DNA of 64,000 nt from Actinomycetota bacterium (GTDB lineage: Bacteria > Actinomycetota > Actinomycetes > Mycobacteriales > HKI-0501): positions 1 to 64,000 of the forward strand of contig JAVEDU010000076.1 of NCBI GenBank assembly GCA_030840805.1, read 5' to 3'. The notes beneath the pieces were generated by a model. It had not been told where the DNA came from, did not search any database, and worked only from the letters and a program-made list of their open reading frames with translations. The position numbers and the translations under genes were made by a program. This document shows, piece by piece, positions 13,878 through 38,049 of this stretch (the stretch's first letter is position 1; every line of letters starts with the position of its first letter).

Positions 13878-13883
13878 TGAGAC

Positions 13884-13912
13884 TTTGTATCGTACGGCGT
13901 ACGGGCAGTCAA
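13884..13912 (-). promoter_or_regulatory. Leaderless promoter with GTAC-type operator (copy C)
   Basis: On the minus strand TTGACT (13912-13907) and TACAAA (13889-13884) are 17 bases apart. The spacer and -10 contain GTACGCCGTACGATA (plus 13888-13902), matching the 15-base consensus of copies B and D at 12 positions. The -10 is six bases from the ATG at 13877, which predicts leaderless transcription. Confidence 0.72.
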
Positions 13913-13919
13913 GGGCGGG

Positions 13920-14813: not shown

Positions 14814-14912
14814 CGGGCGCTGTCGCGGCCGCGAGCACCTCACGCGCGAAGGACCCCGGGCGACGGAGGGTCCGCGGTGCGCAGACGTCCTGCGCACCGC
14901 TCCTGCGCGGGC

Positions 14913-15626: not shown

Positions 15627-15763
15627 CATCCCCGCCGCCCGCGGCCGTGGTCCGCGGCCCGGACCGCCGCCTCCGGAACACGCCCGGCACCGCCGGGAGC
15701 CGCCGGCAGCGGAGCAGGCCCGTCGTTGCCGCCCACCACCGCCACCCCCGAAAGCCGCCACTT

Positions 15764-15782
15764 TAGTACAACGTACGGTAGC
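15764..15782. promoter_or_regulatory. GTAC-type operator (copy D) in divergent promoter
   Basis: GTACAACGTACGGTA (15766-15780) is identical over 15 bases to copy B on the other strand. It lies between the divergent maleate-isomerase-like gene and the MFS transporter and touches the proposed GTG start of the latter, so it could control both directions. Confidence 0.7.
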
Positions 15783-20978: not shown

Positions 20979-22726
20979 ACCTCCGCGACACCCTTCGTCG
21001 TTGTCGCTCGCGAGACGACGTCGACCGGGATCTCACCGGCCCAGGCCTGGCGACTGAGCATGTCCGTGACCGAGACGTAGCCCCGCTCGAACTCCCCCGT
21101 CACCGCGTCGACCAGACGGTACTCCTGGCGCTGGCGGTGCATCGGCTGTGACTCGAGCATGATGACCCGCACCTCCCCCTCGGTGAAGTGGCAGCGCTCC
21201 TGGAGGGCCGCGAGCAGTTGCTCGTTGTGCAGGTGCCCCTCGCCGAAGTTCCAGCCGATGGTCGGGCCCGCGACGAACTCTCCGTCGATCGGGATGTGCG
21301 TCGTCTCGTGGTCCCGCCCGGCCGCCCGTGGGATCAGCCCGAACAGCGCGCGCCCGTGGGTGTGCATGGCCCGGAACGCATAGCCCTTGTGCGCCAGGAG
21401 ATCGGCGACCTGATCGCCGTACAGCGTCGCCAGCTGCGACCGGGCGAGTCCGGGGAAGCCGACGATCCCGGAGTCGAGCTTGGCGATCGCACTCGGGGTG
21501 AGGCACCACATCGAGGTCGCCCAGTTACCGGCGTAGTACCGCATGGAGAGCAGGAACGAGAACACCCGGGGGAAGAAGTTCCCGAGGAGGACCAGCGCGA
21601 CGACCGCCGCCATGAGCAGCGCGACGGGCAGCGGGTTGGCCAGGTCACCGACGCCGTACTGCGCATTGTGGACGAACAGCAGCAGGATCCCGAAGCACAT
21701 GAAGACGTTCCACTCGAGCGGGACGCCCATCGGCAGCGCGGACAGGATGTGCAGGTGGAAGACGATCATGATCGTCGCGGCCACCACGGTCGGCAGCCCG
21801 CCGCCGAACAGGAGCAGCGCGAGCGGGACGGTGAACTCCACGACGGTTCCCAGGTGGGCGAGGAACGTCGACACACCCGAGGGCCGGATGTCGTGCGGGG
21901 GGCTCTTGTGGAACAGCCGCTTGATCGCCTTCACCCGGATGATCGGGCTGTTCGACATCATCGTCGCGACGATGTGCGGGAAGTGGCGGTTCAGCTTCGA
22001 CGTCGCCGCGCCCCACCAGATCGCCAGCATGACCAGCTTGGCCGCGATGATCATGTCGACCGGCGGGAAGAAGAACACCAGCGCGAGGAGCCCGTAGACC
22101 TCCGAGCGGGCGGCCAGGAAGATCGTCTTGTCCCGCAGGCCCAGGAGCGCCAGGCCGATCAGCAGCGGCAGCAGGCGGGCGGGGTCGATCAGCCCGACCG
22201 AGCCGTCCAGCGGTCCGTTGTCCCGGCTGCCGGGCGACAGCAGCAGCCACAGGGCGGACCCGATGACCCCGGCGTACAGGAGGACGTCGACCGGCGTCCG
22301 GGTCGTCCCGCTGGTGCCCGGCACGCGGTCCGGCCACGGCGCCAGCCGGATCGTGCCCGGCCGCAGCCAGTACAGGAAGCCGCCGATCGGGGGCAGGAAG
22401 CGCAGCGTCAGCGGGCCGAAACCGCATCCGAAACCGAGCACCTCGAACAGCAGCGTCCAGATCACGACCTTCTGGAAGACCACGGGCTCGGTCCACCAGG
22501 AGGTGAACTCCGCGACCGTGCCGATGCCCGGCGTCGTCGCCGCGAAGAACAGGGCGCCGAGGACGTACAGCCCGATCTTCAGCACATAGACGAGATAGAC
22601 GCCCTCGGGCGGGCCGAAACCCCGCTCGGCCCAGTCCTGGACCATGGGCTTGAGCCGTTCCATCCGGGAGCGGGTGCGCCACTCCTCGTAGTCCAGGTCG
22701 GGGAGCGCTGGCTTGATGAATCCCAT
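20975..22726 (-). CDS. DUF3556 polytopic membrane protein
   Basis: This 583-residue protein opens with the DUF3556 signature (MGFIKPALPDLDYEEW, then WAERGFGPP) and has about ten membrane segments between residues 40 and 400, followed by a soluble C-terminal domain of about 180 residues. The family is known from mycobacteria and relatives and has no established function; the hydrophobic core recalls HTTM/gamma-carboxylase-like membrane proteins, which is only a suggestion. The ATG at 22726 follows GAGGAC and lies 18 bases after the acyl-CoA ligase stop. It is overlapped by the FAD oxidoreductase gene, implying a shared pathway at the membrane. Confidence 0.85.
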   Translation of the reverse strand: MGFIKPALPDLDYEEWRTRSRMERLKPMVQDWAERGFGPPEGVYLVYVLKIGLYVLGALFFAATTPGIGTVAEFTSWWTEPVVFQKVVIWTLLFEVLGFGCGFGPLTLRFLPPIGGFLYWLRPGTIRLAPWPDRVPGTSGTTRTPVDVLLYAGVIGSALWLLLSPGSRDNGPLDGSVGLIDPARLLPLLIGLALLGLRDKTIFLAARSEVYGLLALVFFFPPVDMIIAAKLVMLAIWWGAATSKLNRHFPHIVATMMSNSPIIRVKAIKRLFHKSPPHDIRPSGVSTFLAHLGTVVEFTVPLALLLFGGGLPTVVAATIMIVFHLHILSALPMGVPLEWNVFMCFGILLLFVHNAQYGVGDLANPLPVALLMAAVVALVLLGNFFPRVFSFLLSMRYYAGNWATSMWCLTPSAIAKLDSGIVGFPGLARSQLATLYGDQVADLLAHKGYAFRAMHTHGRALFGLIPRAAGRDHETTHIPIDGEFVAGPTIGWNFGEGHLHNEQLLAALQERCHFTEGEVRVIMLESQPMHRQRQEYRLVDAVTGEFERGYVSVTDMLSRQAWAGEIPVDVVSRATTTKGVAEV

Positions 22727-22744: not shown

Positions 22745-24202
22745 TCAGGCGTTGGTCAGGCCGGCGCGGAGGGTGGGCTTGTCGATCTTTCCGACGGCGT
22801 TCTTCGGAATCACGTCCAGCAGCGTCAGGCGCGTCGGCCACTTGTACTTCGACAGCCGCTCCTGGCAGTGCTCCCGCAGCGCCTCGGCGGTGGCGCCCGC
22901 GCCCGGCCGCAGCGTCACGAACGCGACCGGCACCTCGCCGAGGGTCGGGTGCGGCTCACCGACGACCGCGGCGTCGAGGACGTCGGGGTGCGCGTACAGG
23001 GCGTTCTCGATCTCCTTGGGGTAGATGTTCTCGCCGCCCCGGATGATCATGTCCTTCACGCGGTCCACGAGGACCAGGTAGCCGTCGGCGTCGATGCGTC
23101 CCACGTCCCCGGTGTGCAGCCAGCCGTCGACCACCGTCGCGGCGGTCTCCTCGGGCCGACCGAGGTAGCCCCGCATGACGTTGGGGCCGTGGATGAGCAC
23201 CTCGCCCGCCGAGCCGTCGGTGACGCGTCGCCCGTCCGGACCGAGGATCGCGATCTGCTGGCCCGGGAAGGGCAGCCCGACGGTGCCCGGCTTGCGGGTA
23301 CCGCGCAGCGGGTTGACGGTCGAGGCGCAGGTGCCCTCGGACAGGCCGTAGCCCTCGACCACCGGGATCCCGAACCGGCGCTCGAACCGGTCGATCAGTC
23401 CCGCCGGCATGGGGGCCGCACCGCAGATGGCCGCCCGTACCGAGGACGTGTCGGGCCGCAGATCCCCGGGCAGCGCGGACAGGAGGGCGTAGATCGTCGG
23501 CACGGCGGAGAAGTACGTCGGCCGGACGCGCTCGACGACGCCGAAGAAGGTGTCCGGTGCGAAGCGGCCGGCGATCGTGGTGCGGCCGCCGGCGAGCAGG
23601 GGGGTCAGGACGCTGACCACGATCCCGTTGACGTGGAACAGCGGCAGCACCAGCAGGCTGTGGTCGGCGGCGTCGACCTCGAGCGCGTCGATGCTCATCC
23701 GGCACATCGCGTCGAGGTTGGTGTGGTCGAGCATCACCCCCTTCGGCGTACCGGTCGTACCGCTCGTGTAGATCAGGAGCGCCAGGGCGGACGGATCGGT
23801 GACCGGCTCACCGGAGTCCGGCCGGGTCGTCTCGACCAGGTCCGCGACGCCGAGTGTCACCACATCGGGGTCGATGGCCGCGGCGCCGACGTCGACCAGG
23901 ACCTTTGCCCCCGAGTCGGCGAGCTGGTGCCCGGCCTCGGCGGCCGTCAGTGCCGGGTTGATCGGCGTGACCGCGGCCCCGAGTCGCCACGCGGCGAACA
24001 GCAGGACGACCAGCTCGACCCGGTTCGGGAGCATCACCGCAACGACATCGCCACGCCCGACGCCGTGCCGGCGAAGGACCGCGGCGGCCCCGCGGACCCG
24101 CTGGACGAACTCCGCGTTGGACAGCGAGATCGTGTCGTCCGCAATGCAGTGAGCATCCGGGCTTTGTCCCGCCCGCACATCAGGGAGCGTTGCGAATGGC
24201 AT
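22745..24202 (-). CDS. Acyl-CoA synthetase, AMP-forming (class I adenylate-forming)
   Basis: This 485-residue ligase activates a carboxylic acid with ATP and joins it to CoA or another thiol. The P-loop YTSGTTGTPKG is at 145-155, the adenine-binding block VEGYGLSEG lies mid-protein, the TGD motif is in WLHTGDVG, and the catalytic lysine is in NAVGKIDK near the end. It is somewhat short, consistent with a medium-chain or aromatic acid ligase, but specificity is not readable. ATG 24202 follows GAAGGAG. It is the first gene of the four-gene operon that includes DUF3556, the FAD enzyme and the PucR-type regulator, with an inverted repeat at 24308-24324 upstream. Confidence 0.9.
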   Translation of the reverse strand: MPFATLPDVRAGQSPDAHCIADDTISLSNAEFVQRVRGAAAVLRRHGVGRGDVVAVMLPNRVELVVLLFAAWRLGAAVTPINPALTAAEAGHQLADSGAKVLVDVGAAAIDPDVVTLGVADLVETTRPDSGEPVTDPSALALLIYTSGTTGTPKGVMLDHTNLDAMCRMSIDALEVDAADHSLLVLPLFHVNGIVVSVLTPLLAGGRTTIAGRFAPDTFFGVVERVRPTYFSAVPTIYALLSALPGDLRPDTSSVRAAICGAAPMPAGLIDRFERRFGIPVVEGYGLSEGTCASTVNPLRGTRKPGTVGLPFPGQQIAILGPDGRRVTDGSAGEVLIHGPNVMRGYLGRPEETAATVVDGWLHTGDVGRIDADGYLVLVDRVKDMIIRGGENIYPKEIENALYAHPDVLDAAVVGEPHPTLGEVPVAFVTLRPGAGATAEALREHCQERLSKYKWPTRLTLLDVIPKNAVGKIDKPTLRAGLTNA

Positions 24203-25277: not shown

Positions 25278-26681
25278 TCACCCGGGCACGGCCGGCGGAC
25301 CGGTGACGCTCGCTCCGAGCAGTGCCACGGCGGTACGCACCCCGCCGCGGAAACAGTCGACGGCGAACCGCTCGTTCGGCGCGTGCATGCGGTCCTCCGC
25401 CAGGGCGAACCCGAGCAGCACGGTCGGCAGCCCCCGCACGACCGCGAGCTGGTGGACCACCGGAATGGTCCCGCCGGAACGGAGCAGCACCGGCGCTCGG
25501 CCGAAGCCGATCCGAGCGGCGGCCCGGGCCGCGTCGACGAGGGTCCCGGACGTGGGCAGCTCGACCGGCGCCGCGGTGGCCCGGACGTTCAGGGAGACCA
25601 CGGTCCCCGGGCGGCTCAGCCGGCGGATCCGAGACCGGAGGGCGGCCACGGCGCGGGCCGGGTCCTGCCCCGGCGCCAGCCGCAGGCTGAGGTCCGCGGA
25701 CGCCTCCGCGCGTACCACCGCCCGCGAGCGGCCGTCCCCCGTCCGCAGCGCGGAGACCACCAGCGCGGGACGGACCGTGGCCCGGGCATGCGCGCCGAAC
25801 CGGGCCTCGACGGCACCGGCGCCGGCCGGGCGCGCCCACCCGAGCCCGAGCACCTCCGCGTCGGACGGCACGGCCTCGCCCGGGACGGCCCGCGGCGACG
25901 GCGGGGGCAGCCCCGGCAGCCGCACCGCGCCCCGAGGTGAGTGGAGCCCGCAGACGATCCGGCACAGCTCGCGAGCGGGGTCGGCCACCGCTCCCCCGTA
26001 CGCCCCCGAGTGGAGGTCGCCCGCCGCGCCCCGCACGATGAGCTCCGCGTGCACGGCGCCCCGGAGCGACACCGTCAACGCGGGGGTACGGGCGTCGCGC
26101 ATCCGGGTGTCGCTGACGACGGCGGCCGAGGGGCGGTACCGCGCCCACACCGCGTCCAGCACGGGCCCGAGGTGCGGGCTGCCGATCTCCTCCTCGCCGT
26201 CGAGGACGAGTACCACCCCGACCGGCAGCGCGCCCGCGGTGGCGTACCAGCACTCGACGGCGGCCACGTGCGCCATCAGCTGACCCTTGTCGTCCGAGAC
26301 CCCGCGGCCGTACAGCACCCCGTCCCGCACGACCGGCCGGAACGGCGCGACCGCCCACGCCCCGGACGGCCCGGCGGGCTGGACGTCGTAGTGCCCGTAC
26401 ACCAGCAACGTCGGCGCACCGGGCGGCGCGGGGGCGTACCCGACCACGGCGGGGTGCCCGTCCGTCCGATGCAGCCGGACCTCGGGCAGCCCCGCCGAGC
26501 GCAGCCGCGCTACCAGCCACCGTGCCGCCCGCTCGACGTCGCCCCGGTGCGCCGGGTCGGCGCTCACGCTCGGGATCGCGGCGAGCGTGGCGACGTCGTG
26601 CAGGTGCCGTGCGGCGTGCGCCCGGGCATACCCGAGGGCAGCGCCCGTGGCGGTGACCGTCCGGGTCGCGGTCACCGTCAC
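25278..26681 (-). CDS. M20 family dipeptidase (cytosolic non-specific dipeptidase-like)
   Basis: This 467-residue metallopeptidase keeps all zinc-site motifs of the M20 carnosinase-type dipeptidases: YGHYDVQP (His97, Asp99), GRGVSDDKG (Asp130), DGEEEIGS (Glu163, Glu164) and the final HAPNERF. It should hydrolyse short peptides or N-acyl amino acids in the cytoplasm. The GTG at 26681 lies four bases after the stop of the unknown 405-residue gene, so it may be the last gene of the acidic-protein operon, where it could finish peptide degradation begun by the HExxH protein. That functional link is inference from position. Confidence 0.88.
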   Translation of the reverse strand: MTVTATRTVTATGAALGYARAHAARHLHDVATLAAIPSVSADPAHRGDVERAARWLVARLRSAGLPEVRLHRTDGHPAVVGYAPAPPGAPTLLVYGHYDVQPAGPSGAWAVAPFRPVVRDGVLYGRGVSDDKGQLMAHVAAVECWYATAGALPVGVVLVLDGEEEIGSPHLGPVLDAVWARYRPSAAVVSDTRMRDARTPALTVSLRGAVHAELIVRGAAGDLHSGAYGGAVADPARELCRIVCGLHSPRGAVRLPGLPPPSPRAVPGEAVPSDAEVLGLGWARPAGAGAVEARFGAHARATVRPALVVSALRTGDGRSRAVVRAEASADLSLRLAPGQDPARAVAALRSRIRRLSRPGTVVSLNVRATAAPVELPTSGTLVDAARAAARIGFGRAPVLLRSGGTIPVVHQLAVVRGLPTVLLGFALAEDRMHAPNERFAVDCFRGGVRTAVALLGASVTGPPAVPG

Positions 26682-26685
26682 CGCC

Positions 26686-27903
26686 TCAGTGGCGGCCGTT
26701 CAGGGGCCGACCCGAGCCGCGGTACGCACCCAGGCCGCCGCGCCGGGAGTACATGGCCGGGCCGTACCGGGCGCGGCGCGCCGACTCGGAGACCGGCCGG
26801 GTGGCGACCCCGACGGGTGCGTGGCGATCCCACGGGAGGACGCGCTCGGTCTCGGTCCGCTCCGCCAGGCCGAGGGACTGCGCCGAGGTGATCCACTCCT
26901 CCGCCGGCTCGGCGATCTCCAGCAGCAGCGCCTCGAACTCGGCCCGGGTCGCCTCCATGATGTGCGGCGCCGCGAGCCAGCGCAGGATCTGCCGGCCGGT
27001 GACCCCCATCCGCTGGCGCGGCGAGGTGACCAGGCGCTCGTCGAAGTAGCGGATCAGGACCTCGTCCACCACGTCCCAGGCGTTGGCGGCGCCGAAGAGG
27101 TCCTTCACGTCCTCGGAGTCGAGGATGCGGTACGCCTCGTCGAGGAGCTGCATCAGCTCGACCCGCAGCACGTTCAGGTGGCCGTACGAGGTGAACTTCA
27201 GGTTGTTCCGGAAGTCCAGCCCCGCCCGCCGCACGATCGCGATGCTGCCGAAGCTGGGGTCGTACGCGCGGAGCCGGATGACATCCGAGATCCGCTTGTC
27301 GCGCCAGAACAGGGCCACCTGGTTGGCGAAGTGCACCAGCAACTTGTGGAAGTCGGTGTTCGGGCGGGCGCCCGCCGACCCGCGGCCCCGGCCGTAGCCG
27401 AGGATGCGCCGGTACGCCAGGATCCGGTCGTCCCGGGTGTAGCGCAGGACGTCGCGACGGTCGAACTTGTACAGCGCGAACGCGCCGGGGCCGTCGGAGA
27501 GCCGCACCGCGCCCTGCTGGAACAGCTGCTGCAGCTTCTGGACGACCTTGAAGACGCCGATCCGCTCGTGCTGGTACACGTAGTACAGGTCGCCCACCGC
27601 GACGATCCGTTCGGACGCGACGGTCTCGTCGTACTCCTTGACCCCGCGCGGCATCCGGGCCTGGCCCAGCGTCTCGGCCGCCTCGGGCCCGACGCCGGCC
27701 AGCTGGCCGAGGCCGCCGTCCGCGGGTGGCCGTGCCGCCATGTCGGCCGCCTCCAGCGCCGCCGTCATGTCGTCGATCTGGCGGTTCAGCGCATCGGCGA
27801 GCTGTGGGTCCACGGAGAGCTTGGAGGCGAGCCCGCTCGTCACCTGGTCACGTAGCGCCGCGAGCCGGTCGTACAGCTCGTTGTATTCCTTCTCGGTGCC
27901 CAT
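26686..27903 (-). CDS. Unrecognised helical protein with RGG/Tyr-rich tail (405 aa)
   Basis: I do not recognise this 405-residue protein. It starts with a short helical region (about 1-55), continues as a mostly alpha-helical soluble domain (90-345) with conserved-looking blocks such as YYVYQHERIGVF and FHKLLVHFANQVALFW, and ends in a low-complexity Arg/Gly/Tyr tail (YSRRGGLGAYRGSGRP). There is no signal peptide or membrane segment. It is the sixth gene of the cluster that starts with the acidic-repeat protein and is followed after four bases by the dipeptidase. A structural or adaptor role in that system is possible. Confidence 0.75.
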   Translation of the reverse strand: MGTEKEYNELYDRLAALRDQVTSGLASKLSVDPQLADALNRQIDDMTAALEAADMAARPPADGGLGQLAGVGPEAAETLGQARMPRGVKEYDETVASERIVAVGDLYYVYQHERIGVFKVVQKLQQLFQQGAVRLSDGPGAFALYKFDRRDVLRYTRDDRILAYRRILGYGRGRGSAGARPNTDFHKLLVHFANQVALFWRDKRISDVIRLRAYDPSFGSIAIVRRAGLDFRNNLKFTSYGHLNVLRVELMQLLDEAYRILDSEDVKDLFGAANAWDVVDEVLIRYFDERLVTSPRQRMGVTGRQILRWLAAPHIMEATRAEFEALLLEIAEPAEEWITSAQSLGLAERTETERVLPWDRHAPVGVATRPVSESARRARYGPAMYSRRGGLGAYRGSGRPLNGRH

Positions 27904-27931
27904 CGGGTTCTTCTCCTCCGTCGAGATCCGG

Positions 27932-29842
27932 TCAGGACTGTTCGACGACGACGTCCGCGACGTCGAGGCGCCTGAGGGTGCCCAGCTCGCGGATCTGGAT
28001 CTCGACCACGTCGCCGTCCCCCTCGAGGTCGACGTCCTCGAACGTCACCCGCCACAGGTCACCGCCGAGGCGCGTCACCTCGGCGGACACCACGAGCCCG
28101 TCCGGCTGCACGAGCGCGAACTCGTGCCGCGCTTGGTCGAAGTCCCGCGCCTCCACCGTGCTCTCCACGGTGCCGACGGCGGACTCGGTGTCGAGCCCGA
28201 ACGAGATGCCGACAGCCGGCGCGGGGATCTCCACGATGGTCGGCCGGTGCGCGGCACCCCGGGCGAGGCACCGGATGTCGAAGAGGCGGTCCTGGAGCGA
28301 CTCGAACGCCACCCGCACGCGCGCGGTCTCGAAGCCGGTCGGCAGGATGCCGCCGCAGCCGAACTGGACCGGACCGTCGGAGCCGCCGCCGGTGGCCCCC
28401 CGGCCACGCCCGAGGGAGCCGCGCCGGGCCCGGCTCGTCCTCTCCTGTGGCGTCCAGCCGATGGCGACGTTGACCGCCTCGTACAGCTTCTCGACCGTGG
28501 GGAGGAACGCGGTGAGGATGCCGGCCCGGCCCCCCACGTCGATGACGCGCTTCCCCTCGTACAGCGCGAACTCCTCGATCCAGGTGAGCAGCCCGTCCAG
28601 GGTGATCGGGGGGTCCGCGAGCCGCAGTGCCTGCCGTTCACCCGCGTCGATGAGCACCGAGTCGAGCGAGACCTTGACCTCCTCCACCTGATCGGCGAGG
28701 GCGGCCAACTGTCCACCCAGGACGGTGAGGGTGCTGCCGAGGAAGGCGTTGTGGCCGGACCACGGGTCGAGTTCCACGCGCTGGTCCTCCCAGCTCGCGA
28801 GGAGCCCGGCGATCCAGTCGACCAGCGTGATGAAGCTGGTCTGGTTCCGCTCCTCGTCCAGGGTGTTGACGCTCCCGGTGAAGATGCCGAGCTCCCGCGC
28901 CAGGTCCGCCAGGTGTCCCCCGACGGTGGTCGCCGTGACCAGCCCGGCCACGTCCCCGTCGCCCGGGTCGAACCCGGTGAGCCGGGCGAAGATCAGGTCC
29001 ACCCGGGGCAGGCGCAGCAGCGGGGACTGCAGCTCCTTCTGGAGCTCCTCCACGTCGAAGCGGACGAGCCCGCGTACCGCGGCGCAGTCCTCCGGGTCCG
29101 CGGCCGGGTCGAGCGGGGTGAGCGCGTCCAGCAGCGGCAGTGCCTCCCGGATGGTCGCCCGGGCGCGCGCCGCGAGCGACGCCTGGCCGCCCGTGACCGC
29201 GCCCATGTCGGCCTGCACGGCGAAGCCCCGCGGCGTCCACCTCGCCTCGGTGTGCCCCTCGACCTTGTGGAGCGTGAAGCTCCCGGTGAGCGCGGCGAGG
29301 AAGGCCTTCGGGTCCTCGGTCCGCACCCGCCAGCCGAGGACGTCCCCGATGGACTGGATCGCCAGCGGCCCGGGATCGCTGTCCGGGGTCGCGGCCCGGC
29401 GGGAGAACTCCTGGGTGACGATCGGGAAGGGGAAGTCGGGCGCGGGCACGACGACGCCGTTGCCGCCGTTGCCGCCGTTGCCGCCATCGGCCCCGTTGCC
29501 GCCCTTACCGCCGTTGCCGTGGCCGCCGTTGCCCCCGTTGCCGGCTGCGCGCCTGGGCCCGCTGTCCCGCCGCGCGGCGGACCGGCCGGCGGGACGATCC
29601 GGAGCACGGACCTCCGGCGTGCGCGGGCCGGCGCTCGCGGCGACCTCACCGCCGCGGGGCTCCCCGGGCACCGGCCGGCTCACCGCACGCGGCGCACCGG
29701 GAGGTGGTGGCTCGGGAGGTGGTGGCTCGGTGGCGGCGGGGACGTCCGACGCGACGGGCGCGGGCGTCGGCCTCGGATCGGGCTTCGCGGGCGGGTCCGG
29801 CTGGTCCGCGGGCTGATTCGCGCGCTTGCTGGGCGGGGTCAT
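27932..29842 (-). CDS. Unrecognised protein with Pro-rich and Gly/Asn-rich N-terminus (636 aa)
   Basis: I cannot assign this 636-residue protein. Residues 1-60 are proline-rich, 60-100 Arg/Pro-rich, and 101-129 a Gly/Asn repeat built on GGNGG. The ordered part (130-635) begins with VVVPAPDFPFPIVTQEFSR and seems to contain a helical bundle (about 225-440) and a C-terminal beta-rich domain (about 480-635, with VRVAFESLQDRLFD and acidic beta strands). There is no signal peptide. It lies 33 bases after the 153-residue gene and 28 before the 405-residue gene in the same operon. The low-complexity start is shared in style, not sequence, with its neighbours. Confidence 0.75.
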   Translation of the reverse strand: MTPPSKRANQPADQPDPPAKPDPRPTPAPVASDVPAATEPPPPEPPPPGAPRAVSRPVPGEPRGGEVAASAGPRTPEVRAPDRPAGRSAARRDSGPRRAAGNGGNGGHGNGGKGGNGADGGNGGNGGNGVVVPAPDFPFPIVTQEFSRRAATPDSDPGPLAIQSIGDVLGWRVRTEDPKAFLAALTGSFTLHKVEGHTEARWTPRGFAVQADMGAVTGGQASLAARARATIREALPLLDALTPLDPAADPEDCAAVRGLVRFDVEELQKELQSPLLRLPRVDLIFARLTGFDPGDGDVAGLVTATTVGGHLADLARELGIFTGSVNTLDEERNQTSFITLVDWIAGLLASWEDQRVELDPWSGHNAFLGSTLTVLGGQLAALADQVEEVKVSLDSVLIDAGERQALRLADPPITLDGLLTWIEEFALYEGKRVIDVGGRAGILTAFLPTVEKLYEAVNVAIGWTPQERTSRARRGSLGRGRGATGGGSDGPVQFGCGGILPTGFETARVRVAFESLQDRLFDIRCLARGAAHRPTIVEIPAPAVGISFGLDTESAVGTVESTVEARDFDQARHEFALVQPDGLVVSAEVTRLGGDLWRVTFEDVDLEGDGDVVEIQIRELGTLRRLDVADVVVEQS

Positions 29843-29875
29843 GACTACCTCTCTTCCACAGCGACAGGCGCCGGA

Positions 29876-30337
29876 CTACCGGCTCGTCGGTACACGGACA
29901 GTCGGGGTCGGCGCGGCCTCGAGAACCTCCCGCCAGCAGCGCAGCAGCGCGTCCTCGGCCGTGCGGAGCCCTGGCTCGCAGCGGTCGAGCCCGGTGCGGA
30001 CCGCGTGGTGCCAGGCCCGCCAGGCGGGTCCGTGGGGGTCCAGCGACCGCCGCAGCGCGGCGGCCCGGTCGGCGGCGCGGAGCTCGCGGTAGTACCGGTC
30101 GCGCACCGCCCGGAGACCGTACGACGCCGCGACCAGTGCGGGACCGTCGAGCGGGGCCAGGCCGTTCAGCGCGTCCTCGATCTCGCCGAGGCCGTCCACC
30201 AGGGTGTCGCAGAGCCCCTCCGCGGCCGCCAGGTCGCCGGGCCGGTCCTCGGTCACGGTCACCACGACCTCCCGCCACGAGTCCCGGAGCCGCCCCAGCG
30301 CCCGTGCCAGCTCGAGAAGCTCGGTCTCCAGTGCCAT
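29876..30337 (-). CDS. Unrecognised small helical protein (153 aa)
   Basis: This 153-residue protein is predicted to be almost entirely alpha-helical, with heptad-like stretches (METELLELARALGRLRDSW region, then GLCDTLVDGLGEIEDALNGL and AALRRSLDPHGPAWRAWHHAV). It resembles no family I know. It starts four bases after the stop of the metallopeptidase-like gene and is therefore probably translationally linked to it. A coiled-coil partner or chaperone role for one of the larger proteins is a reasonable guess but nothing more. Confidence 0.7.
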   Translation of the reverse strand: MALETELLELARALGRLRDSWREVVVTVTEDRPGDLAAAEGLCDTLVDGLGEIEDALNGLAPLDGPALVAASYGLRAVRDRYYRELRAADRAAALRRSLDPHGPAWRAWHHAVRTGLDRCEPGLRTAEDALLRCWREVLEAAPTPTVRVPTSR

Positions 30338-30341
30338 CGCG

Positions 30342-31799
30342 CTACCGCCGTGCCAGTTCGACGTAGAAGTTGCGCATCAACGTCTCCGGGTCGGCGTGGC
30401 TCTGGTCCATCGCCGCCCGGACGGCGCCGAGCAGGAACCGTTCGGGAACCACGCCGGGGTCCACGCCCCGCGCGAGCCGACCGGCGGCCTCCTCGACCAT
30501 CGCCTGCTCCTTGGGCTCGAACCGCTGGACCTGGCGCAGCGTCCGGTTGCCGAGCGTCGGGAACCGGGTACCGGTGACGGCGTCCACCACGACCGGGATC
30601 GCCCGCCCGGCCGTGCGGAGCACCGCCGGCGGGATCGTGCTCGCCCTCGGGTCGGGGTACAGCCGCCGCCAGAGCCGGTCGTAGGACGCGGCGTCGGCCT
30701 CGAACCCGAGCTGCCTCAGCAGGTGGGTGGACAGGAATGCCCGCAGGTACGGCGTGGGATGGGGCCCCGTCGGCATGTACCGCAGCGACACCGCGGGGTC
30801 GCGGCCGATCACGTCGAAGAGCGAGCCCACGAACGACGGCCCGCCGAGCAGCAGCCCCGCCATGTCCGCGAAGATCTCGCGGTTCCACCGGGTCCAGACC
30901 CCGACGGCCTCGGCCGGCAGCCCCTCGGCCATGAGCCGCCGCGCGATGGTCTCCGGCACGATCCGCTGGAGACCCAGGTCGTTCTGCAGGTTGTGGCTGA
31001 TCTCGTGCAGCACCGCGCCGAGCGTCCACGGGTTCACCAGCCGGTGGTACGGCAGTTGGACCAGCGGGAACGGGTTGAGCTGCCGGCCCAGTCGGCGCAG
31101 CGGGATGCCGCGGCGATAGGTGGCAGGGGAGAACCCCGTGCGCATGTACGAGAACGGCGGCGGCGCCGGGATCGACCGCGCGGCGCCCAGGCCCAGGTAG
31201 GTGTACTGGTAGCAGTCCAGGGCGATGCGATCACACGCGAGCAGCCACTCGGCGTACCGCGACTGCCGCTGCCCGAACAGCTCGAAGTAGAAGTCCCAGA
31301 CCTTCTCGGTGGCGCGCACCCAGTCGTGGGCCTTGGACTTGAGCCGCAGCAGCTCGGCGAGGCGGCGGGAGGTGGGCTGCTGCGCGGCGGCGTCCGCCGA
31401 CAGGCGGACGGCCCCGGTCACCGTTCGGAGCGGCCTGCGCAGCGTGTCCAGCAGGGCGTTCACCGACCGGATGTGCCCCTCCGACGGCGCCGCGTCGGAG
31501 GTGCCGAACTCCGCCCGGGTGAACGGCCTGAGCGCGTCGAGGTGCCTCTGGACGTTGGTGCCCTGTCCGACGGTCCACGTGCCGAGAGTGGTGCCCGGGG
31601 CGGTCCGGTACGCGGGGACCTCGGGGCCGGGACGGAGCGGCACCCCGTCGTACCCGCCACCGCCCGCCCGGACCGTCGCCCGGCGGCGCCGGGTGCCCCC
31701 GGTGTCCCGCGGGAGCGTTCCCACGGGCACCCGGGACCGGCGGCGCCTCGGGGAGACGGCCGGGCTGACGGCGGGGCTGCCGCCGAGGTCAGCGGACAC
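30342..31799 (-). CDS. HExxH metallopeptidase-like protein of the acidic-protein cluster
   Basis: This protein of about 485 residues has a basic, disordered N-terminus (SPRRRRSRV, then GGTRRRRATVRAGGGGYDG) and an ordered region from about residue 80. It contains HEISHN at 265-270 followed, about 40 residues later, by NREIFADM (306-313), the arrangement of gluzincin zinc peptidases in which two His and a Glu bind zinc and the first Glu is catalytic. I do not recognise the family. The GTG at 31799 overlaps the end of the second acidic gene by eleven bases and is preferred because it keeps the operon compact; the frame is open further upstream. Likely substrate is unknown; the neighbouring proteins are candidates. 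Confidence 0.7.
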   Translation of the reverse strand: MSADLGGSPAVSPAVSPRRRRSRVPVGTLPRDTGGTRRRRATVRAGGGGYDGVPLRPGPEVPAYRTAPGTTLGTWTVGQGTNVQRHLDALRPFTRAEFGTSDAAPSEGHIRSVNALLDTLRRPLRTVTGAVRLSADAAAQQPTSRRLAELLRLKSKAHDWVRATEKVWDFYFELFGQRQSRYAEWLLACDRIALDCYQYTYLGLGAARSIPAPPPFSYMRTGFSPATYRRGIPLRRLGRQLNPFPLVQLPYHRLVNPWTLGAVLHEISHNLQNDLGLQRIVPETIARRLMAEGLPAEAVGVWTRWNREIFADMAGLLLGGPSFVGSLFDVIGRDPAVSLRYMPTGPHPTPYLRAFLSTHLLRQLGFEADAASYDRLWRRLYPDPRASTIPPAVLRTAGRAIPVVVDAVTGTRFPTLGNRTLRQVQRFEPKEQAMVEEAAGRLARGVDPGVVPERFLLGAVRAAMDQSHADPETLMRNFYVELARR

Positions 31800-32496
31800 G
31801 GGCGCGGGCCCGGGGCCGCCGCGCGCGGACGGCCGGGCCGCCGTAGCCGCGAACGCGCCGGCGACGCGGCCCGCCGCCGGCGTGCCAGCGCCGGTCGAAC
31901 ACCGTGACCGCACTGCGCGCGCGCCGCGCGGCCACCGGCGTGCCCAGCGTGCGCTGGGTGATACGGCCGATCGTCCGGAACACCGTCGAGCCGTCGATCG
32001 GGCGCCCGTTGCGGGCCTGGTCGGCGAGGCTCTGCAGGGTGCGCTGGGCGATCACCGGGAGCGTGGAGACCAGTTGCCGGGTCGCCGGATCGCTGCGGAG
32101 CTGCCGGACGACCCGGCTGGCGCCGCGGATCAGCGTCGGGGCGTGCCGCGCCACCAGCGACGCGGCCCGTGGCACCAGCCTCGCCGCCAGCGGGACCAGT
32201 GCGCCGATGAACGCCTCGGCCTCCTCCTCGGTCTCCGCCGCGGCCGCGGCCTGGCCGAGATGGGCCATCAGCTCGGCGTCGGGGTAGATGCGGCGTACCG
32301 GGTTGACGAACCCCTCGCCCTCCGCTTCCGCCTCGGCCTCCGCCTCGAGCTCGAAGTCGAACTCCGCCTCGTCCTCGAACTCGCCCTCGTACTCGCCCTC
32401 GAGCTCCTCCTCGAACTCGCCCTCGAGCTCGTACTCGCCCTCCCACTCGTCCTCGAATTCCAGCTCGCCCTCGATGACGGGGAACTTGCTGCTCAT
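31789..32496 (-). CDS. Acidic-repeat protein 2 (Glu/Phe/Tyr-rich N-terminus, basic C-terminus)
   Basis: A 235-residue protein with three parts: an acidic stretch (8-62) made of Glu alternating with Tyr, Phe, Leu, Gly and Ala (for example GEYELEGEFEEELEGEYEG), a helical region (88-187), and an Arg-rich C-terminus (188-235). The helical part matches residues 252-347 of the larger acidic protein encoded just upstream (shared pattern RGA, R-Q, P-I, T, then A-G-PI and T-R-LG), so the two are paralogues. There is no signal peptide. The ATG at 32496 follows GAGGAGG and is 16 bases from the neighbour's stop. Function unknown. Confidence 0.8.
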   Translation of the reverse strand: MSSKFPVIEGELEFEDEWEGEYELEGEFEEELEGEYEGEFEDEAEFDFELEAEAEAEAEGEGFVNPVRRIYPDAELMAHLGQAAAAAETEEEAEAFIGALVPLAARLVPRAASLVARHAPTLIRGASRVVRQLRSDPATRQLVSTLPVIAQRTLQSLADQARNGRPIDGSTVFRTIGRITQRTLGTPVAARRARSAVTVFDRRWHAGGGPRRRRVRGYGGPAVRARRPRARARVR

Positions 32497-32512
32497 CGTG
32501 CCTCCTCGGTCG

Positions 32513-33985
32513 TCAGCGCTGGCGTCGCTGCGGGGAACGGGTGACGGTGGCGGTCCGGCCCGTCGGCACCGCGCCCCGCGGGACGCGGACGTCGGTGACC
32601 ATGCGCACCACCCGCGGCGGCGAACCGGCACGTCCGGGGACCCGGACGGGGGTCACCACGCGCACGGTGCCGGGTGGCCGTCTCACCCCGGTCCGGGCGT
32701 ACTGCGGCGTGATGCGGCTGCGGATCGGCTGGCCGCGCACCGCGCCCGCGCCGCCGCGGCGCACACCGGCGTACGGGGCGCCCGGGCGGCGGTAGGGACG
32801 GCCGCTCGCGTACCGACGCCCGGGGTAGCCACCGGTGCGGCGGGGCCGGTACCCGCCGCCGGTCCGTTGTCCGACGACGCGCCGGTAGGTCCGGACGCCG
32901 CGGACGTTGCGGGCGAGAGCGTGGCGGCACCGCCGGTGGTCACCGAGCACGCGCCCGGTGTGGCCGGCCATCACCCGTGCCGTCTCCACCGGCCCGATCG
33001 GCTCGCCGGCCGCCGCCCGGCGCGTCAGCGTGGTGGCGGTGTCGTTGACGATCGTCGGCACGGCGCGGATGAACTGCCGGGCCTCCCGCGTGCCGTACAG
33101 GAGGCGGGTGATCGCGGCCGCGCCCCGCACCAGCCCGGGCAGCGCGCGGGCCAGGGCCCGGCGGTCGCGGGCGGACAGCGTGGTGACCGCGGCGGCACCG
33201 GCGAGTGCCTCCGCCTCGTCCTCGGTCTCGGCGGCGCTGGCGACGGCCGCGAGGGCCTCCGCCTCGGCGTTCGCCGCGGTGAGCGGGGACCGAAGGACGG
33301 CCTGGTGGGCGGCCTCGAGCTCGCCCTCGTCCTCGAACTCCGCCTCCCCCTCGAGCTGACTGGCGAGCGCCCGGGCGACCATGCCCGCGGCGGGGCCACC
33401 GACCGCGGTGGCGACGAGCGGACCGGCGGTCTTGGCGAGGGTGCGCAGGATGGGCGCGGCGCGGCGGACGACGCGGCCGATCCCGCGGGCGATCCCCCGG
33501 AACCGCTTGAAGAACTCCTCGGCCTCGTCCTCGCCCTCGAACTCGTACTCGCCCTCGTACTCCTCCTCGTACTCGCCCTCGCCGAGCAGACCGCCGACGG
33601 CCCGGGCGATGCCGCCGAGGAACTCCTCCCCCTCGTACTCCTCCTCACCCTCGAGGAGGCTCTCCAGCTCCTCCTCGTACTCGCCCTCCCACTCACCCTC
33701 CAGCTCCTCCTCGAACTCGAGCTCCCCCTCCTCCTCGTACTCGCCCTCGCCCTCGCCCTCGCCGAGCAGGCCGCCGACGGCCCGGGCGATACCGCCGAGG
33801 AACTCCTCCCCCTCGTACTCCTCCTCACCCTCGAGGAGGCTCTCCAGCTCCTCCTCGTACTCGGTCTCCGATTCGGACTCGAGCTCTTCCTCGCCCTCAC
33901 CGAAGAACCCTCCGAGGCCGGAGAGCACCTTGCCGAGGAACTCCTCGGACTCCCGCGAGATGGCGACGTCCTGGTGCTGCGCCAT
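32513..33985 (-). CDS. Acidic-repeat protein 1 (first gene of an undescribed operon)
   Basis: This 490-residue protein opens with MAQHQDVAIS, then acidic repeats in which a 60-residue unit occurs twice (43-78 and 103-138 are nearly identical: EEELESLLEGEEEYEG then EEFLGGIARAVGGLLGEGE). A more hydrophobic region (160-210) with alternating Gly, Ala and Arg follows, a second acidic patch (211-225), the helical domain shared with acidic protein 2 (252-347), and a long Arg/Gly/Pro/Tyr-rich basic C-terminus (360-490). No signal peptide is present. The ATG at 33985 follows GGAGGAG. Such opposite charge at the two ends suggests self-association. I know no function for it. Confidence 0.8.
   Translation of the reverse strand: MAQHQDVAISRESEEFLGKVLSGLGGFFGEGEEELESESETEYEEELESLLEGEEEYEGEEFLGGIARAVGGLLGEGEGEGEYEEEGELEFEEELEGEWEGEYEEELESLLEGEEEYEGEEFLGGIARAVGGLLGEGEYEEEYEGEYEFEGEDEAEEFFKRFRGIARGIGRVVRRAAPILRTLAKTAGPLVATAVGGPAAGMVARALASQLEGEAEFEDEGELEAAHQAVLRSPLTAANAEAEALAAVASAAETEDEAEALAGAAAVTTLSARDRRALARALPGLVRGAAAITRLLYGTREARQFIRAVPTIVNDTATTLTRRAAAGEPIGPVETARVMAGHTGRVLGDHRRCRHALARNVRGVRTYRRVVGQRTGGGYRPRRTGGYPGRRYASGRPYRRPGAPYAGVRRGGAGAVRGQPIRSRITPQYARTGVRRPPGTVRVVTPVRVPGRAGSPPRVVRMVTDVRVPRGAVPTGRTATVTRSPQRRQR
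33583..33863. repeat. Two ~100-bp near-identical direct repeats inside acidic protein 1 gene
   Basis: About 100 bases starting at 33583 recur 180 bases later at 33763 with only a few substitutions, preserving the frame. They encode the two copies of the acidic plus LGGIARAVGG unit, a recent tandem duplication within the gene. Confidence 0.8.
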
Positions 33986-34220
33986 TGCCGGCTCCTCCTC
34001 TGCGCTGGCGATCCGCCTCGCAGTACAGAACGGACCCGGCCCGCGCGGTAGTCGCCTCTTCTGTGGACGCACAAAAGGGGTGCTTCGTCCGGGTTACCCC
34101 GTCCACGTGTCACGCGTCCGTAGGACTACCGCCGCCCCGGACGGCTCTGCTGGAATGGCGAACAGGCATGCCAGCTATTGCGGAGCCGTGCCAGCCAGTC
34201 GCGTCCCAACGGGAGGGATC
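33986..34220. promoter_or_regulatory. Divergent intergenic region between acidic operon and LuxR-type gene
   Basis: These 235 bases must hold the promoters of both the minus-strand acidic-protein operon and the plus-strand LuxR-type gene. It is less GC-rich around 34040-34110. An imperfect inverted repeat, GGGGT to ACCCC (34077-34100), is visible; no clear -10 or -35 could be chosen. Confidence 0.45.
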
Positions 34221-34802
34221 ATGACTGTGGCCGACGAGCGTGCACAGGCAGATTCCTGGCCATCCGTCCAGACCGTCCCGCGCCCGGCTCCGGTGCCCCG
34301 GTCCCGGCCCGACGACGGTGCCGCGCGATGGCGGGACAACGACCGCGTGGACATCCCACCCGGCGAGGCGGAACCGCGCTCCGAGCCCGGCCCGGCCCCG
34401 GACGACCACGAGATCGTCGCCCTGCTCCGGCAGGTGCTGCGCCGCTCGCGCCGCGACGGCACGACCGTGACGTCGGCAGACGGTGTCCTGCTGGACGTGG
34501 TCGTCGAGGGCGTGCGGTGCCTGCTGGTGCGCGAACCGGCTCCGCCCTCCATGGCGGCGCTGAGCCCGCGCGAGCGGGAGATCGCGCGGATGGTCAGCCT
34601 CGGTCACACCAACAAGACCATCGCCGACGTACTCGAGATCAGCCTGTGGACGGTGTCGACGCACCTCCGCCGGGTCTTCGCGAAGCTCGGTGTCTCCACG
34701 CGGGCCGCGATGATCGGCGTGCTGTCCGGCAATCCAGAGCTCCTGAGCCCCCGCCGGGTGTCCGAACGCGACGCCGGCCGCGGTCCCGTGTTCTCGTCCT
34801 GA
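34221..34802 (+). CDS. LuxR-type transcriptional regulator without receiver domain
   Basis: This 193-residue protein has a Pro/Arg/Asp-rich N-terminus (1-65), a small mixed region (70-118), and a complete NarL/LuxR helix-turn-helix (about 122-185: ALSPREREIARMVSLGHTN, then ADVLEISLWTVSTHLRRVFA). There is no phosphoacceptor domain. The ATG at 34221 follows GGGAGGG. It is divergent from the six-gene acidic-protein operon and shares its promoter region, so it is the natural candidate regulator for that operon. What signal it senses is not visible. Confidence 0.88.
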   Translation: MTVADERAQADSWPSVQTVPRPAPVPRSRPDDGAARWRDNDRVDIPPGEAEPRSEPGPAPDDHEIVALLRQVLRRSRRDGTTVTSADGVLLDVVVEGVRCLLVREPAPPSMAALSPREREIARMVSLGHTNKTIADVLEISLWTVSTHLRRVFAKLGVSTRAAMIGVLSGNPELLSPRRVSERDAGRGPVFSS

Positions 34803-34897: not shown

Positions 34898-35430
34898 TCA
34901 CAGGTGCCAGCCGAGGATGCCGGCGACGAGCTCGCGTTTGCTGTGGACGCCCAGCCTGTCGAGCACGGCCTTGACGTGGTCCTGGACGGTGGACGGGGAG
35001 ATGTCCAGCTGCCGGGCGATCTCGCTGGTCGGGAGACCGGCGAGGAGCTGCCGGGCGGGGTCGCGCTGGCGAGGGGTGAGCCCGGGGCGTGGAACACCAG
35101 CGGGGCGACGCCGGCGGCATCGGCGGCCTGGATGGTGACCGCGACGGACCCGGGCGGGGTCGCCGCTCCCCGGTGAGGCACGAGGCGTGGACGGCCAGCC
35201 AGTGGCCGTCGGCGATGCGGACGCGCACGCGTGGCTCGGTGGCTGCGCCGATCGGCGCAGGCCTGGACTCGTCGGGTACGGAGCGGAGCCAGGCGGCGAC
35301 GGCGAGGACGGCGGCCGTGCCCTTCCTCGTCCCATGGGCGGCCGACGTGGCGACTCCCGCCGAGCAGTACGCCGTGCCGCTGCGGAGGCTGCCGCCGCTG
35401 ACCCGTGGCCGCTGTCGCCGGCACGCCCAG
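34898..35430 (-). pseudogene. Frameshifted LuxR-family regulator gene
   Basis: Homology continues through three frames on the minus strand. From about 35430 down to 35165 one frame reads GTAAVLAVAAWLRSVPDESR and then RIADGHWLAVHASCLTGE; a second frame carries VAVTIQAADAAGVAPLVFHA; a third gives the helix-turn-helix LTPRQRDPARQLLAGLPTSE followed by IARQLDISPSTVQDHVK, and ends at the TGA at 34898. Joined, they form the C-terminal part of a known type of actinobacterial LuxR protein, so at least two frameshifts have broken the gene. The 5' part was not found with confidence. Sequencing error cannot be excluded. Confidence 0.7.
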
Positions 35431-36333
35431 GTCGCCTTCGGTGGACCAGGAAGGCGAGCAGGCCGTCCGATGACGTCTGGAGTGGCCGCCCCGGGGCGGG
35501 CGGCCAGGTCGTCCCGGCCGCCGTGAGCGTTCCTGCCAGGCCGAGCGCCCCCGCCGTGCGGACCCGTCGCGCCCGCGTGACCTGACGGTGCGGCCGATCG
35601 ACGTCGGCCCGAGTGGTTCCCGGTATCAGCGTGAACACACCGCCCGGACCGGTCACCACAATGGTCGATGTCGGGGCTCCGCTGCCCGTGACCAGAAGGA
35701 GTAGGCCAGCCGAATACGGCGCCGCTCTCCGCGTACGGGCGTCACGCTATTCGAGTCGGCAGTGCGCGCCGCGCGTGATCGCCCCTTTCTCGTTCGGCGC
35801 CCGCCTTTGTACACCGGACAGTTTCGTGACCTTCACCTCGCCCGCGTCGAGTTCCGATATCGAATTCCCGCATCGTCCCTCGCCGGCACCCCACCGGTCC
35901 TTCCTTGCGGTTCCGCGCCAGAAGCGCGCTCACCCGCGGGAAGAGGTCCGCGCAGTCACATCTCCGGTACCTCTACCAGCGCGGCTGTCGCCGCGCCTCG
36001 CCCTCGGCGATCGGCCACCACCGTCCGATGCGGCGGCGTTCGCCGCTCCGCGCCCAGAAGAGCGCTCGATACCCGGTGTATCCCACCTAACAGACGTATC
36101 CGCGAAGATATCCGGCCACCGGAAATGCCGCGTCGCATTCGGCCCCGCCGGCGCGGTGACGGGAGTACATTGCATTCGTTACCCCAGACCTCGGTGGCGT
36201 GCTGAATCCGCCCGAGTCCTTTCCGGGGAAATCGGACGAAAGACAGCTCCGGCCGCGCGGCGTGGACCGCGCTGTCTCCGCACGACGCACCACGCCGTGC
36301 GCTTCTACAACCGTGCCCGGGAAAGAAGCCGTC
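35431..36333. other. Intergenic stretch of about 900 bases, no supported gene
   Basis: No frame here shows coding character or a convincing start. The GC content drops clearly between about 35750 and 36200 compared with the flanks, with local AT-richer patches (near 35850 and 36100). It probably holds the promoter of the DUF3494 gene and decayed sequence upstream of the LuxR pseudogene. Confidence 0.6.
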
Positions 36334-38049
36334 ATGCACCGCTTCAGTACCGCCGTCCGGACCCTCACCGGCGCCGCCGCCACCGACCGCGAACACCGCA
36401 TGCGCGTGACCCGCGAGGGGGTCGCACCTCCTCGCTCCACGGGAGAGACCATGCGCGCACTGGCCGGCGCCACGATCCTCGCCACGGGCGTGGCGATGGC
36501 CGTCCTCACCCCCACCGCCGCCTACGCCGTCGCGACCACCCCGCCGCTGGGCGCGGCCGCCACCTTCGCCGTACTCGCGGGCTCGACGGTGACCAACACC
36601 GGCCCGAGCGTCGTCACCGGCGACCTGGGCGTCAGCCCCGGCACGGCGGTGACCGGGTTCCCGCCCGGGACGGTCAACGGGACCATCCACGCCGGGGATC
36701 CCACGGCCGCCGCGGCCCAGGGCGACCTCACCACGGCGTACAACTTCGCGGCCGGCGAAGCCTGCGACACGAACCTGACGAGCACGGACCTGGGCGGCTT
36801 GACGCTGCCCCCCGCCGTCTACTGCTTCAACACCTCGGCGCAGCTCACCGGCACCCTCACCCTGGATGCGCAGGGAAACCCCAACGCCGCGTGGGTCTTC
36901 CAGATCGGCACCACTCTCACCACGGCAAGCAATTCGGCGGTCGTGCTCATCAACGGGGCGACCCCCTGTAACAACAACAACGTGACCTGGCAGGTCGGCA
37001 GCAGCGCCACCCTGGGGACGGGCACCAGCTTCGTCGGCAACATCCTGGCGAACCAGTCCATCAGCCTCGCCGCGGGCTCGAACAGCACCGGCAGCCTGTT
37101 GGCGCGCATCGGCGCGGTCACGCTGGACACCAACAACGTGAGCACCTGCGGCGGGGCGGGCGGCACGGCCGGCCCCTCGGTCACCACCACGCCGTCGGGT
37201 TCGGTACCGGCGGGCGGGAACATCTCCGACACCGCTCGCGTGATCGGCGGGGCGTCCCCCACCGGCACCGTGACCTTCAGGTTGTACGGCCCCGGCGACA
37301 ACTCCTGCGCGAACGCGATCGCCACCAGAACCGGCGCGCTGACCGGTGGCACCGCCTCGTCGGGCAACGTCACCGCGGGCGGCGCGGGCACGTACAACTG
37401 GGTGGCCACCTACAACGGCGACGCCAACAACCGTCCGGTGACCTCGCCCTGCGGGAGCGAGAAGGTGGTCGTCTCCGGCCAGAACCTGACCGGACGGGCG
37501 TACGGGCTCAAGGCGACCGCGACCCTGCTCGGGGTCCCCCTCGTCACCGTGCCGCGCACGCCTGACACGGGCCCCGTCTCGACGACCTCGAACTCGTCCA
37601 CGACGACCCCGTGCGTGGCCACCGTGAGTGGGCTGGTCAGCGCCCACGCCCTGTGCGCCAACGTCACCACGGTGGCCTTCCCCAGCAAGTCCACGGCCAC
37701 CGCGTCGACCGCGGACACCACCGTCGCCATCGCCGGCATCCCCACCGTCACGATGCGCACCATCCAGTCCTCGTCGACGACGACCTGCTCCGGATCGACC
37801 GGTAGCGCCACCATCGAGTTCCTCAAGGTCGGCAACACCGTGGTGATCGGCGCACCTGGCCGGCCGGCGCCCAACACGGGGATCAATGTGGGCGTCGTCT
37901 CGCTGGTCCTCAACGAGCAGATCCCCTTGACCACCCCGGACAAGGGTCTGACCGTGAACGCGGTGCACCTCAAGGTCAACACGCTCGGCCTCGCCGTGGT
38001 GGACGTCATCGTGGCCTCGTCCGAGAGCGACATCGGCAACTGCCCGTAA
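36334..38049 (+). CDS. Secreted DUF3494 (ice-binding-like) / choice-of-anchor P protein
   Basis: This protein of 571 residues is exported. A signal peptide is clear from MRALAGATILATGVAMAVL to the cleavage site near AYA at residue 65. If translation starts at ATG 36334, that peptide has an unusually long leader; ATG 36451, behind GGGAGAGA, would place it exactly at the N-terminus and is a good alternative. Residues 70-250 are a DUF3494 beta-solenoid domain (LGAAATFAVLAGSTVTNTG, then VVTGDLGVSPG), known from ice-binding and surface adhesion proteins. An Ig-like domain (about 285-385) and a choice-of-anchor-P-like domain (390-571, with paired Cys) follow. It probably decorates the cell surface. 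Confidence 0.85.
   Translation: MHRFSTAVRTLTGAAATDREHRMRVTREGVAPPRSTGETMRALAGATILATGVAMAVLTPTAAYAVATTPPLGAAATFAVLAGSTVTNTGPSVVTGDLGVSPGTAVTGFPPGTVNGTIHAGDPTAAAAQGDLTTAYNFAAGEACDTNLTSTDLGGLTLPPAVYCFNTSAQLTGTLTLDAQGNPNAAWVFQIGTTLTTASNSAVVLINGATPCNNNNVTWQVGSSATLGTGTSFVGNILANQSISLAAGSNSTGSLLARIGAVTLDTNNVSTCGGAGGTAGPSVTTTPSGSVPAGGNISDTARVIGGASPTGTVTFRLYGPGDNSCANAIATRTGALTGGTASSGNVTAGGAGTYNWVATYNGDANNRPVTSPCGSEKVVVSGQNLTGRAYGLKATATLLGVPLVTVPRTPDTGPVSTTSNSSTTTPCVATVSGLVSAHALCANVTTVAFPSKSTATASTADTTVAIAGIPTVTMRTIQSSSTTTCSGSTGSATIEFLKVGNTVVIGAPGRPAPNTGINVGVVSLVLNEQIPLTTPDKGLTVNAVHLKVNTLGLAVVDVIVASSESDIGNCP

Follow-up and report, generated by a model that had tools for sequence, protein, structure and literature searches.

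Which function could bring together, on one strand, six genes that match no described protein family and a seventh that encodes a common type of peptidase? The question is raised by positions 25278-34802 of a 64,000-nucleotide stretch of DNA from an Actinomycetota bacterium (contig JAVEDU010000076.1, assembly GCA_030840805.1), hereafter called the window, in which an operon of seven minus-strand genes, A to G, is accompanied by one plus-strand gene for a LuxR-type regulator devoid of a receiver domain. Comparison across genomes indicates that these genes almost certainly form a dedicated system, which is best read as a probably horizontally mobile, LuxR-linked module with a core of A to F and one interchangeable hydrolase. 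Regarding its mode of action, the best explanation as a whole, which we advance tentatively, is that the putative metallopeptidase C matures A and B, two charged repeat proteins with the layout of polyampholytes, and that the exchangeable hydrolase does the work.

The dedicated nature of the system rests on its conservation. A scan of 84,980 species genomes with F as query retrieved 16 loci in which F is 65-85% identical, from Rugosimonospora, Lentzea, Kutzneria, Streptomyces, Saccharopolyspora, Kribbella, Nocardioides, Mycolicibacterium and a Marmoricola metagenome-assembled genome; further loci of the operon type occur in Pseudonocardiaceae and other families. The loci share the order (A)-B-C-D-E-F, with B, C, E and F present in all 16, D in 15, a match to A in 14 and G in 12. 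G is missing from four Saccharopolyspora loci, two of which have a single repeat protein that takes the matches to both A and B. The full set is also found on a 2.4-Mb plasmid of Paraburkholderia sp. PGU19 (C 55%, F 71% and G 41% identical), followed there by an amidohydrolase gene and a LuxR gene. The order is thus kept far outside the source strain, a point that the preliminary description of this locus had put forward for checking, and the conserved unit is larger than stated there, as it also takes in the LuxR gene and, in Paraburkholderia, the amidohydrolase. GC-rich DNA does yield many long chance open reading frames, and the genes might in principle be spurious frames or chance neighbours, but orthologues in order over two phyla make chance untenable, and we consider its probability practically negligible. 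It is rare for six unannotated families to be kept together as a block in more than one phylum.

Although its order is conserved, the system is rare. Among 297 genomes sampled over the phylum, the window's own was the single one with F. Full-type C was counted in 12 of 250 genomes of Pseudonocardiaceae, 7 of 250 of the window's order, 3 of 250 of Nocardioidaceae and 1 of 249 of Streptomycetaceae, counts that take in genomes already known as carriers. In a tree of C and F, the window groups with Rugosimonospora, and Mycolicibacterium lies among Nocardioidaceae, which points to transfer. The long Paraburkholderia branch falls between the remaining actinobacteria and a set of three loci from another family; the presence of the system across phyla may reflect transfer or old ancestry with loss, both being possible.

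In the window, A (33985-32513, 490 amino acids), B (32496-31789, 235), C (about 31730-30342, 462, start uncertain), D (30337-29876, 153), E (29842-27932, 636) and F (27903-26686, 405) are open reading frames on the minus strand, and G (26681-25278, 467, same strand) has Pfam and NCBIfam matches in addition. The genes are separated by 16 bases (A-B), 4 (C-D), 33 (D-E), 28 (E-F) and 4 (F-G), while the spacing between B and C hinges on the start of C: a GTG at 31730 leaves 58 bases, and the longest open reading frame of C overlaps B. Searches of A to F returned zero Pfam, NCBIfam, PADLOC or PHROGs families above cut-off. The view of six neighbouring genes of unrecognised family followed by a dipeptidase therefore stands, G being the only one that Pfam and NCBIfam recognise, and neither hidden Markov model searches nor, for C, structure searches gave any clear similarity to a known system, the outcome that would have spoken against novelty in the preliminary description. 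A to F are accounted for by no known family or system. The cytoplasmic location proposed for all the proteins likewise agrees with a hydropathy maximum over 19 residues of 0.8-1.7 across the operon, which is low for a membrane helix.

The gene that follows F gives the strongest hint about function, namely the association of a constant core with a variable hydrolase. In the window this gene, G, is an M20 peptidase, with matches to PF01546 (Peptidase_M20; 100.6 bits, cut-off 24.6, E 1.4e-28), PF07687 (M20_dimer; 37.5 bits, cut-off 21) and, at its cut-off, NCBIfam PRK09104, which bears out its earlier designation as a dipeptidase. The ligand motifs YGHYDVQ, SDDKGQ, DGEEEIGS, SDT and HAPNE, located by eye, are those of M20 dipeptidases (PRK08201/PRK09104); G differs from these enzymes as the exchangeable final gene of an otherwise undescribed operon. 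An M20 gene follows F in the window and in 12 of the 16 loci, and is joined by the amidohydrolase in Paraburkholderia; an M15_4 gene (D-Ala-D-Ala carboxypeptidase family) takes this place in two loci (L103 4119-5282 and L104 4359-5564, both minus strand), a trypsin-like protease gene does so in one, and no such enzyme is found in Saccharopolyspora and relatives.

Profile-profile comparison (probability 99.4%, E 6.8e-22, 110 columns) establishes A and B as paralogues, as had been suspected. Both begin with arms of Glu/Tyr/Phe/Leu repeats, continue into a helical-looking domain and end in a basic tail. The Glu/Tyr/Phe-rich repeats and basic tails noted earlier are hence present, but "acidic" alone does not describe the proteins, which are polyampholytes running from acidic through neutral to basic: net charge by segment is -60/+8/-6/+2/+35 in A and -29/+10/+12 in B. 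The acidic Glu/Tyr/Phe repeat arm of A (33515..33985, minus strand, residues 1-157, net -60) holds FLGGIARAVGGLLG-type (FLGG-type) amphipathic segments. It is followed by a cationic amphipathic, glycine-zipper-like segment, FFKRFRGIARGIGRVVRRAAPILRTLAKTAGPLVATAVGGPAAGMVARALASQLEGE (33341..33514, minus strand, about residues 158-215), and the protein closes with its basic tail (32516..32950, minus strand, residues 346-490, net +35). B (31789..32496, minus strand) is a smaller version with acidic arm, helical domain and basic tail. The charge layout and amphipathic segments recur among orthologues; the glycine-rich, hydrophobic segment 158-215 keeps a strict pattern in about half of them and a looser form in the others. 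No signal peptide or membrane helix was found in A or B, whose 19-residue hydropathy maxima are 1.41 and 1.47, and a search of their own genome identified the two as its sole clear copies, with no clear further one. The amphipathic and the cationic glycine-rich parts of A look membrane-active or aggregation-prone, and a segment of A may bear some likeness to cecropin-like peptides.

The coexistence of two peptidases and Glu-rich proteins in one operon, together with M20 as the commonest terminal gene, would also suit storage and turnover of peptides or glutamate, with A and B as a Glu-rich reserve or cation-binding material, C opening them and the M20 enzyme completing their degradation. This explanation is less likely, and in our estimate quite improbable: M20 is replaced by M15, a trypsin-like protease or nothing, the conserved amphipathic and basic parts would be superfluous in a store, E and F go unexplained and the distribution is patchy.

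The zinc-peptidase signature previously assigned to C is genuine: a HEISH sequence, the putative zinc-binding and catalytic motif (30993..31007, minus strand, residues 242-246), in which H, E and H are invariant, is followed about 40 residues downstream by EIFAD (30864..30878, minus strand, residues 285-289), whose invariant E and D are the presumed third zinc ligand and its partner. H242, E243, H246, E285 and D289 do not vary in 22 C sequences, from the operon type to relatives of 19-27% identity. This is as expected of an active gluzincin-like metallopeptidase, and C is probably such an enzyme. Gluzincin-type HExxH peptidases (PF04228, M48) share this succession of HExxH and a later E...D; C differs in that no member falls clearly into a Pfam metallopeptidase family and that its fold has no match in the PDB. 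No relevant described Pfam metallopeptidase family was found for the C of the window, and the best one among its relatives was PF04228 (Zn_peptidase), with E 0.06 in 2 of 22 sequences. An AlphaFold2 model from 30 sequences (predicted local distance difference test, pLDDT, 88.9; predicted template-modelling score, pTM, 0.90) is nearly all helical and places HExxH within helix 194-206 and the E/D pair within helix 238-251 (model numbering). Foldseek found nothing significant for this model in the PDB (best E 1.2, template-modelling score at most about 0.3) or among viral models (BFVD), and sequence profiles of C against solved structures returned no solved homologue or peptidase. Among solved structures, therefore, the predicted fold looks new, with the limit that fold search is difficult with models that are mostly helical.

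By its sequence relatives, C belongs to a wide metallopeptidase-like family, which also has members in the CHAT/STAND/trypsin cassettes that occur in actinobacteria and on rhizobial plasmids. A recurrent set of a CHAT gene, a STAND-like gene of about 1700 amino acids and a C-family HExxH gene, several with a trypsin-like protease, was encountered in Pseudonocardiaceae and others (L067-L070, L106) and looks like an undescribed proteolytic conflict system. These relatives, along with the patchy distribution typical of conflict systems, would fit a role of the operon in intracellular conflict or programmed death, C being a proteolytic effector or activator and A and B infection-triggered death substrates. 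We hold this to be unlikely. The cassettes share with the operon a distant C homologue (19-27% identity) with the same invariant residues, and this link runs through C alone; they are without A, B, D, E, F and G, and their own nucleoside triphosphatase (NTPase) and caspase-like genes are absent from the window operon, which has no NTPase, sensor or CHAT gene. The CHAT genes of the same genome sit on other contigs, and PADLOC was empty.

C relatives also occur in sister loci of Paraburkholderia phymatum, Ensifer adhaerens and Rhizobium plasmids, beside acidic- or QGEY-repeat glycine-rich proteins, a large protein at the position of F and a sigma-54 activator. Peptidoglycan-binding enzymes are encoded in two sister loci (one with GIY-YIG, one with glucosaminidase and DUF2272), and two have an amidohydrolase 53-59% identical to that of Paraburkholderia PGU19. 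The repeat proteins match Gly-zipper_Omp below cut-off. On one Rhizobium plasmid (L122), three glycine-rich FLGG-type proteins and a C relative are found at a locus where a single protein (13411-16212, plus strand) unites an acidic N-terminus, a peptidoglycan-binding domain, DUF2272 and glucosaminidase. In a Nocardioidaceae locus (L107 4670-6787, minus strand), a tyrosinase with a peptidoglycan-binding domain and N-terminal TEWGE repeats adjoins a C-family gene.

Peptidases next to repeat or effector proteins are a common theme, and on this ground we propose that C matures A and B; that these are its substrates seems to us an evenly balanced proposition. A and B would be synthesised in the cytosol and neutralise their own charge, the acidic arms of these polyampholytes masking the cationic, amphipathic, glycine-zipper-like segments and the basic tails; D, E and F would be assembly partners. 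Cleavage by C, most likely between the acidic arm and the helical part, would convert an inert assembly into an active one able to bind or disrupt membranes, and the active assembly would direct the terminal hydrolase, which is M20 in the window and M15, trypsin-like or amidohydrolase in other loci, to peptides or the cell wall. Antagonism or regulated lysis would then most likely be served, rather than metabolism; that the outcome is directed at membrane or wall is a possibility we rate somewhat below an even chance. Gene order, motif conservation, charge layout and enzyme swaps are read directly from the sequences, and from these we infer the remainder of the mechanism.

The main rival dispenses with membrane attack. 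In a cytosolic particle or condensate, the arms of A and B would drive assembly, F (with E and D) would form the body, C would trim the scaffold and the hydrolase would be cargo. The polyampholyte layout of A and B and the exchangeable terminal enzyme suit this arrangement, as do the repeat tags on some effector enzymes of the sister loci, such as TEWGE on the tyrosinase protein. F (26686..27903, minus strand) is the most conserved member of the set, with a mean column identity of 76% over its 16 orthologues, an extreme that would befit an assembly subunit. E (27932..29842, minus strand) joins a low-complexity N-terminus to a conserved core (mean column identity 47% over 24 loci), and D (29876..30337, minus strand) is a small helical protein with an orthologue at the corresponding position in 15 of 16 loci. 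The particle, however, finds no shell-protein homology, G bears no repeat tag or obvious cargo signal, and a model of F from 17 close sequences was unusable (pLDDT 38), so that this rival seems to us possible but somewhat doubtful.

Several observations weigh against maturation of A and B by C followed by membrane or wall attack. D, E and F carry no assignment, and the modelling of F failed. Cleavage, membrane binding and killing are all proposals drawn from sequence. As the operon encodes neither a signal peptide nor a membrane helix and contains no gene for secretion, delivery is unexplained. M20 dipeptidases are widespread and could serve for mere clean-up, and G is not essential, since the Saccharopolyspora loci do without it, at least two of them having a single repeat protein as well. 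The repeat proteins of the sister loci match B weakly (35 columns, E 9e-4, probability 23%), and profile comparison detected no relation of E or F to the helical, F-position proteins of these loci, so that a homology considered for these was dropped and the sister loci are related to the operon through C and by layout.

Comparison with described systems yields parallels of function. VMAP/FtsH ternary conflict systems have units in which the gene for a metallopeptidase is paired with that for a precursor peptide that varies rapidly and includes an acidic type (Kaur et al. 2020, PMC7159879). Compared by description, the adjoining peptidase and precursor are a functional parallel, whereas A and B differ as large repeat proteins, and Pfam and NCBIfam searches of A to G found no MoxR, vWA, VMAP, FtsH or radical-SAM gene. 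Phage holin-endolysin cassettes offer a functional analogy only, a membrane-active candidate beside an exchangeable peptide-bond or wall hydrolase; A and B are far larger, charged, and without membrane helices or phage relatives, and the absence of a transmembrane helix led us to reject a holin identity. Encapsulins and other compartments are likewise analogous in function only, through a conserved core with enzyme cargo that varies by lineage, and no shell family of this kind matched the window proteins in Pfam or PHROGs. A phage origin was rejected, as no F or C relatives occur in viral contigs, no C in phage records, and nothing above noise for A to F in PHROGs; a known anti-phage defence system was also set aside (PADLOC, 0 families for A to G). 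Of the dedicated assembly first proposed, an undescribed system with a linked peptidase is upheld by the conserved order and the lack of similarity to known systems, and the phage-related particle is not, in the absence of viral or PHROGs relatives. No description of the operon was found in open-licence papers, which is weak evidence.

Should the proposal hold, it would define, and this we put forward as no better than a speculative possibility, a new class of module found in both Actinomycetota and Pseudomonadota. Its HExxH peptidase, with a helical fold not seen before, would activate glycine-zipper polyampholytes masked by charge, and these would bear or deliver interchangeable enzymes (peptidases, wall hydrolases, nucleases, tyrosinase), no known secretion machine being involved. 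Such a module would contribute a metallopeptidase family whose predicted fold is unmatched, and would illustrate a general strategy by which a protein that is dangerous or prone to aggregate can be produced safely, its charges being masked until proteolysis releases it. The enzyme swaps, and the occurrence of sister loci on rhizobial plasmids, suggest that this platform was adapted by many soil bacteria.

The regulator gene (34221..34802, plus strand, 193 amino acids, ATG after GGGAGG) lies upstream of A and diverges from it, as had been described. GerE helix-turn-helix is its sole domain (PF00196, 55.3 bits, cut-off 23.5), and Pfam gave no match to a receiver. A LuxR gene is linked to the operon in each of the 16 loci; 8 have it upstream of A and divergent, the other 8 downstream of G. 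The 235 bases between A and luxR (33986..34220) are presumed by position only to be the promoter region; no sigma-70-type site was found in them. A second LuxR/GerE-type gene (34898-35659, minus strand) stands tail to tail with the operon regulator, about 100 bases away. Elsewhere in the window, an ice-binding-like protein (PF11999, E 6.5e-63), perhaps with an immunoglobulin-like domain, is encoded at 36334-38046 (plus strand), and a DUF3556 membrane protein (20975-22726, minus strand, E 1.3e-252) adjoins an AMP-binding acyl ligase at 22745-24202.

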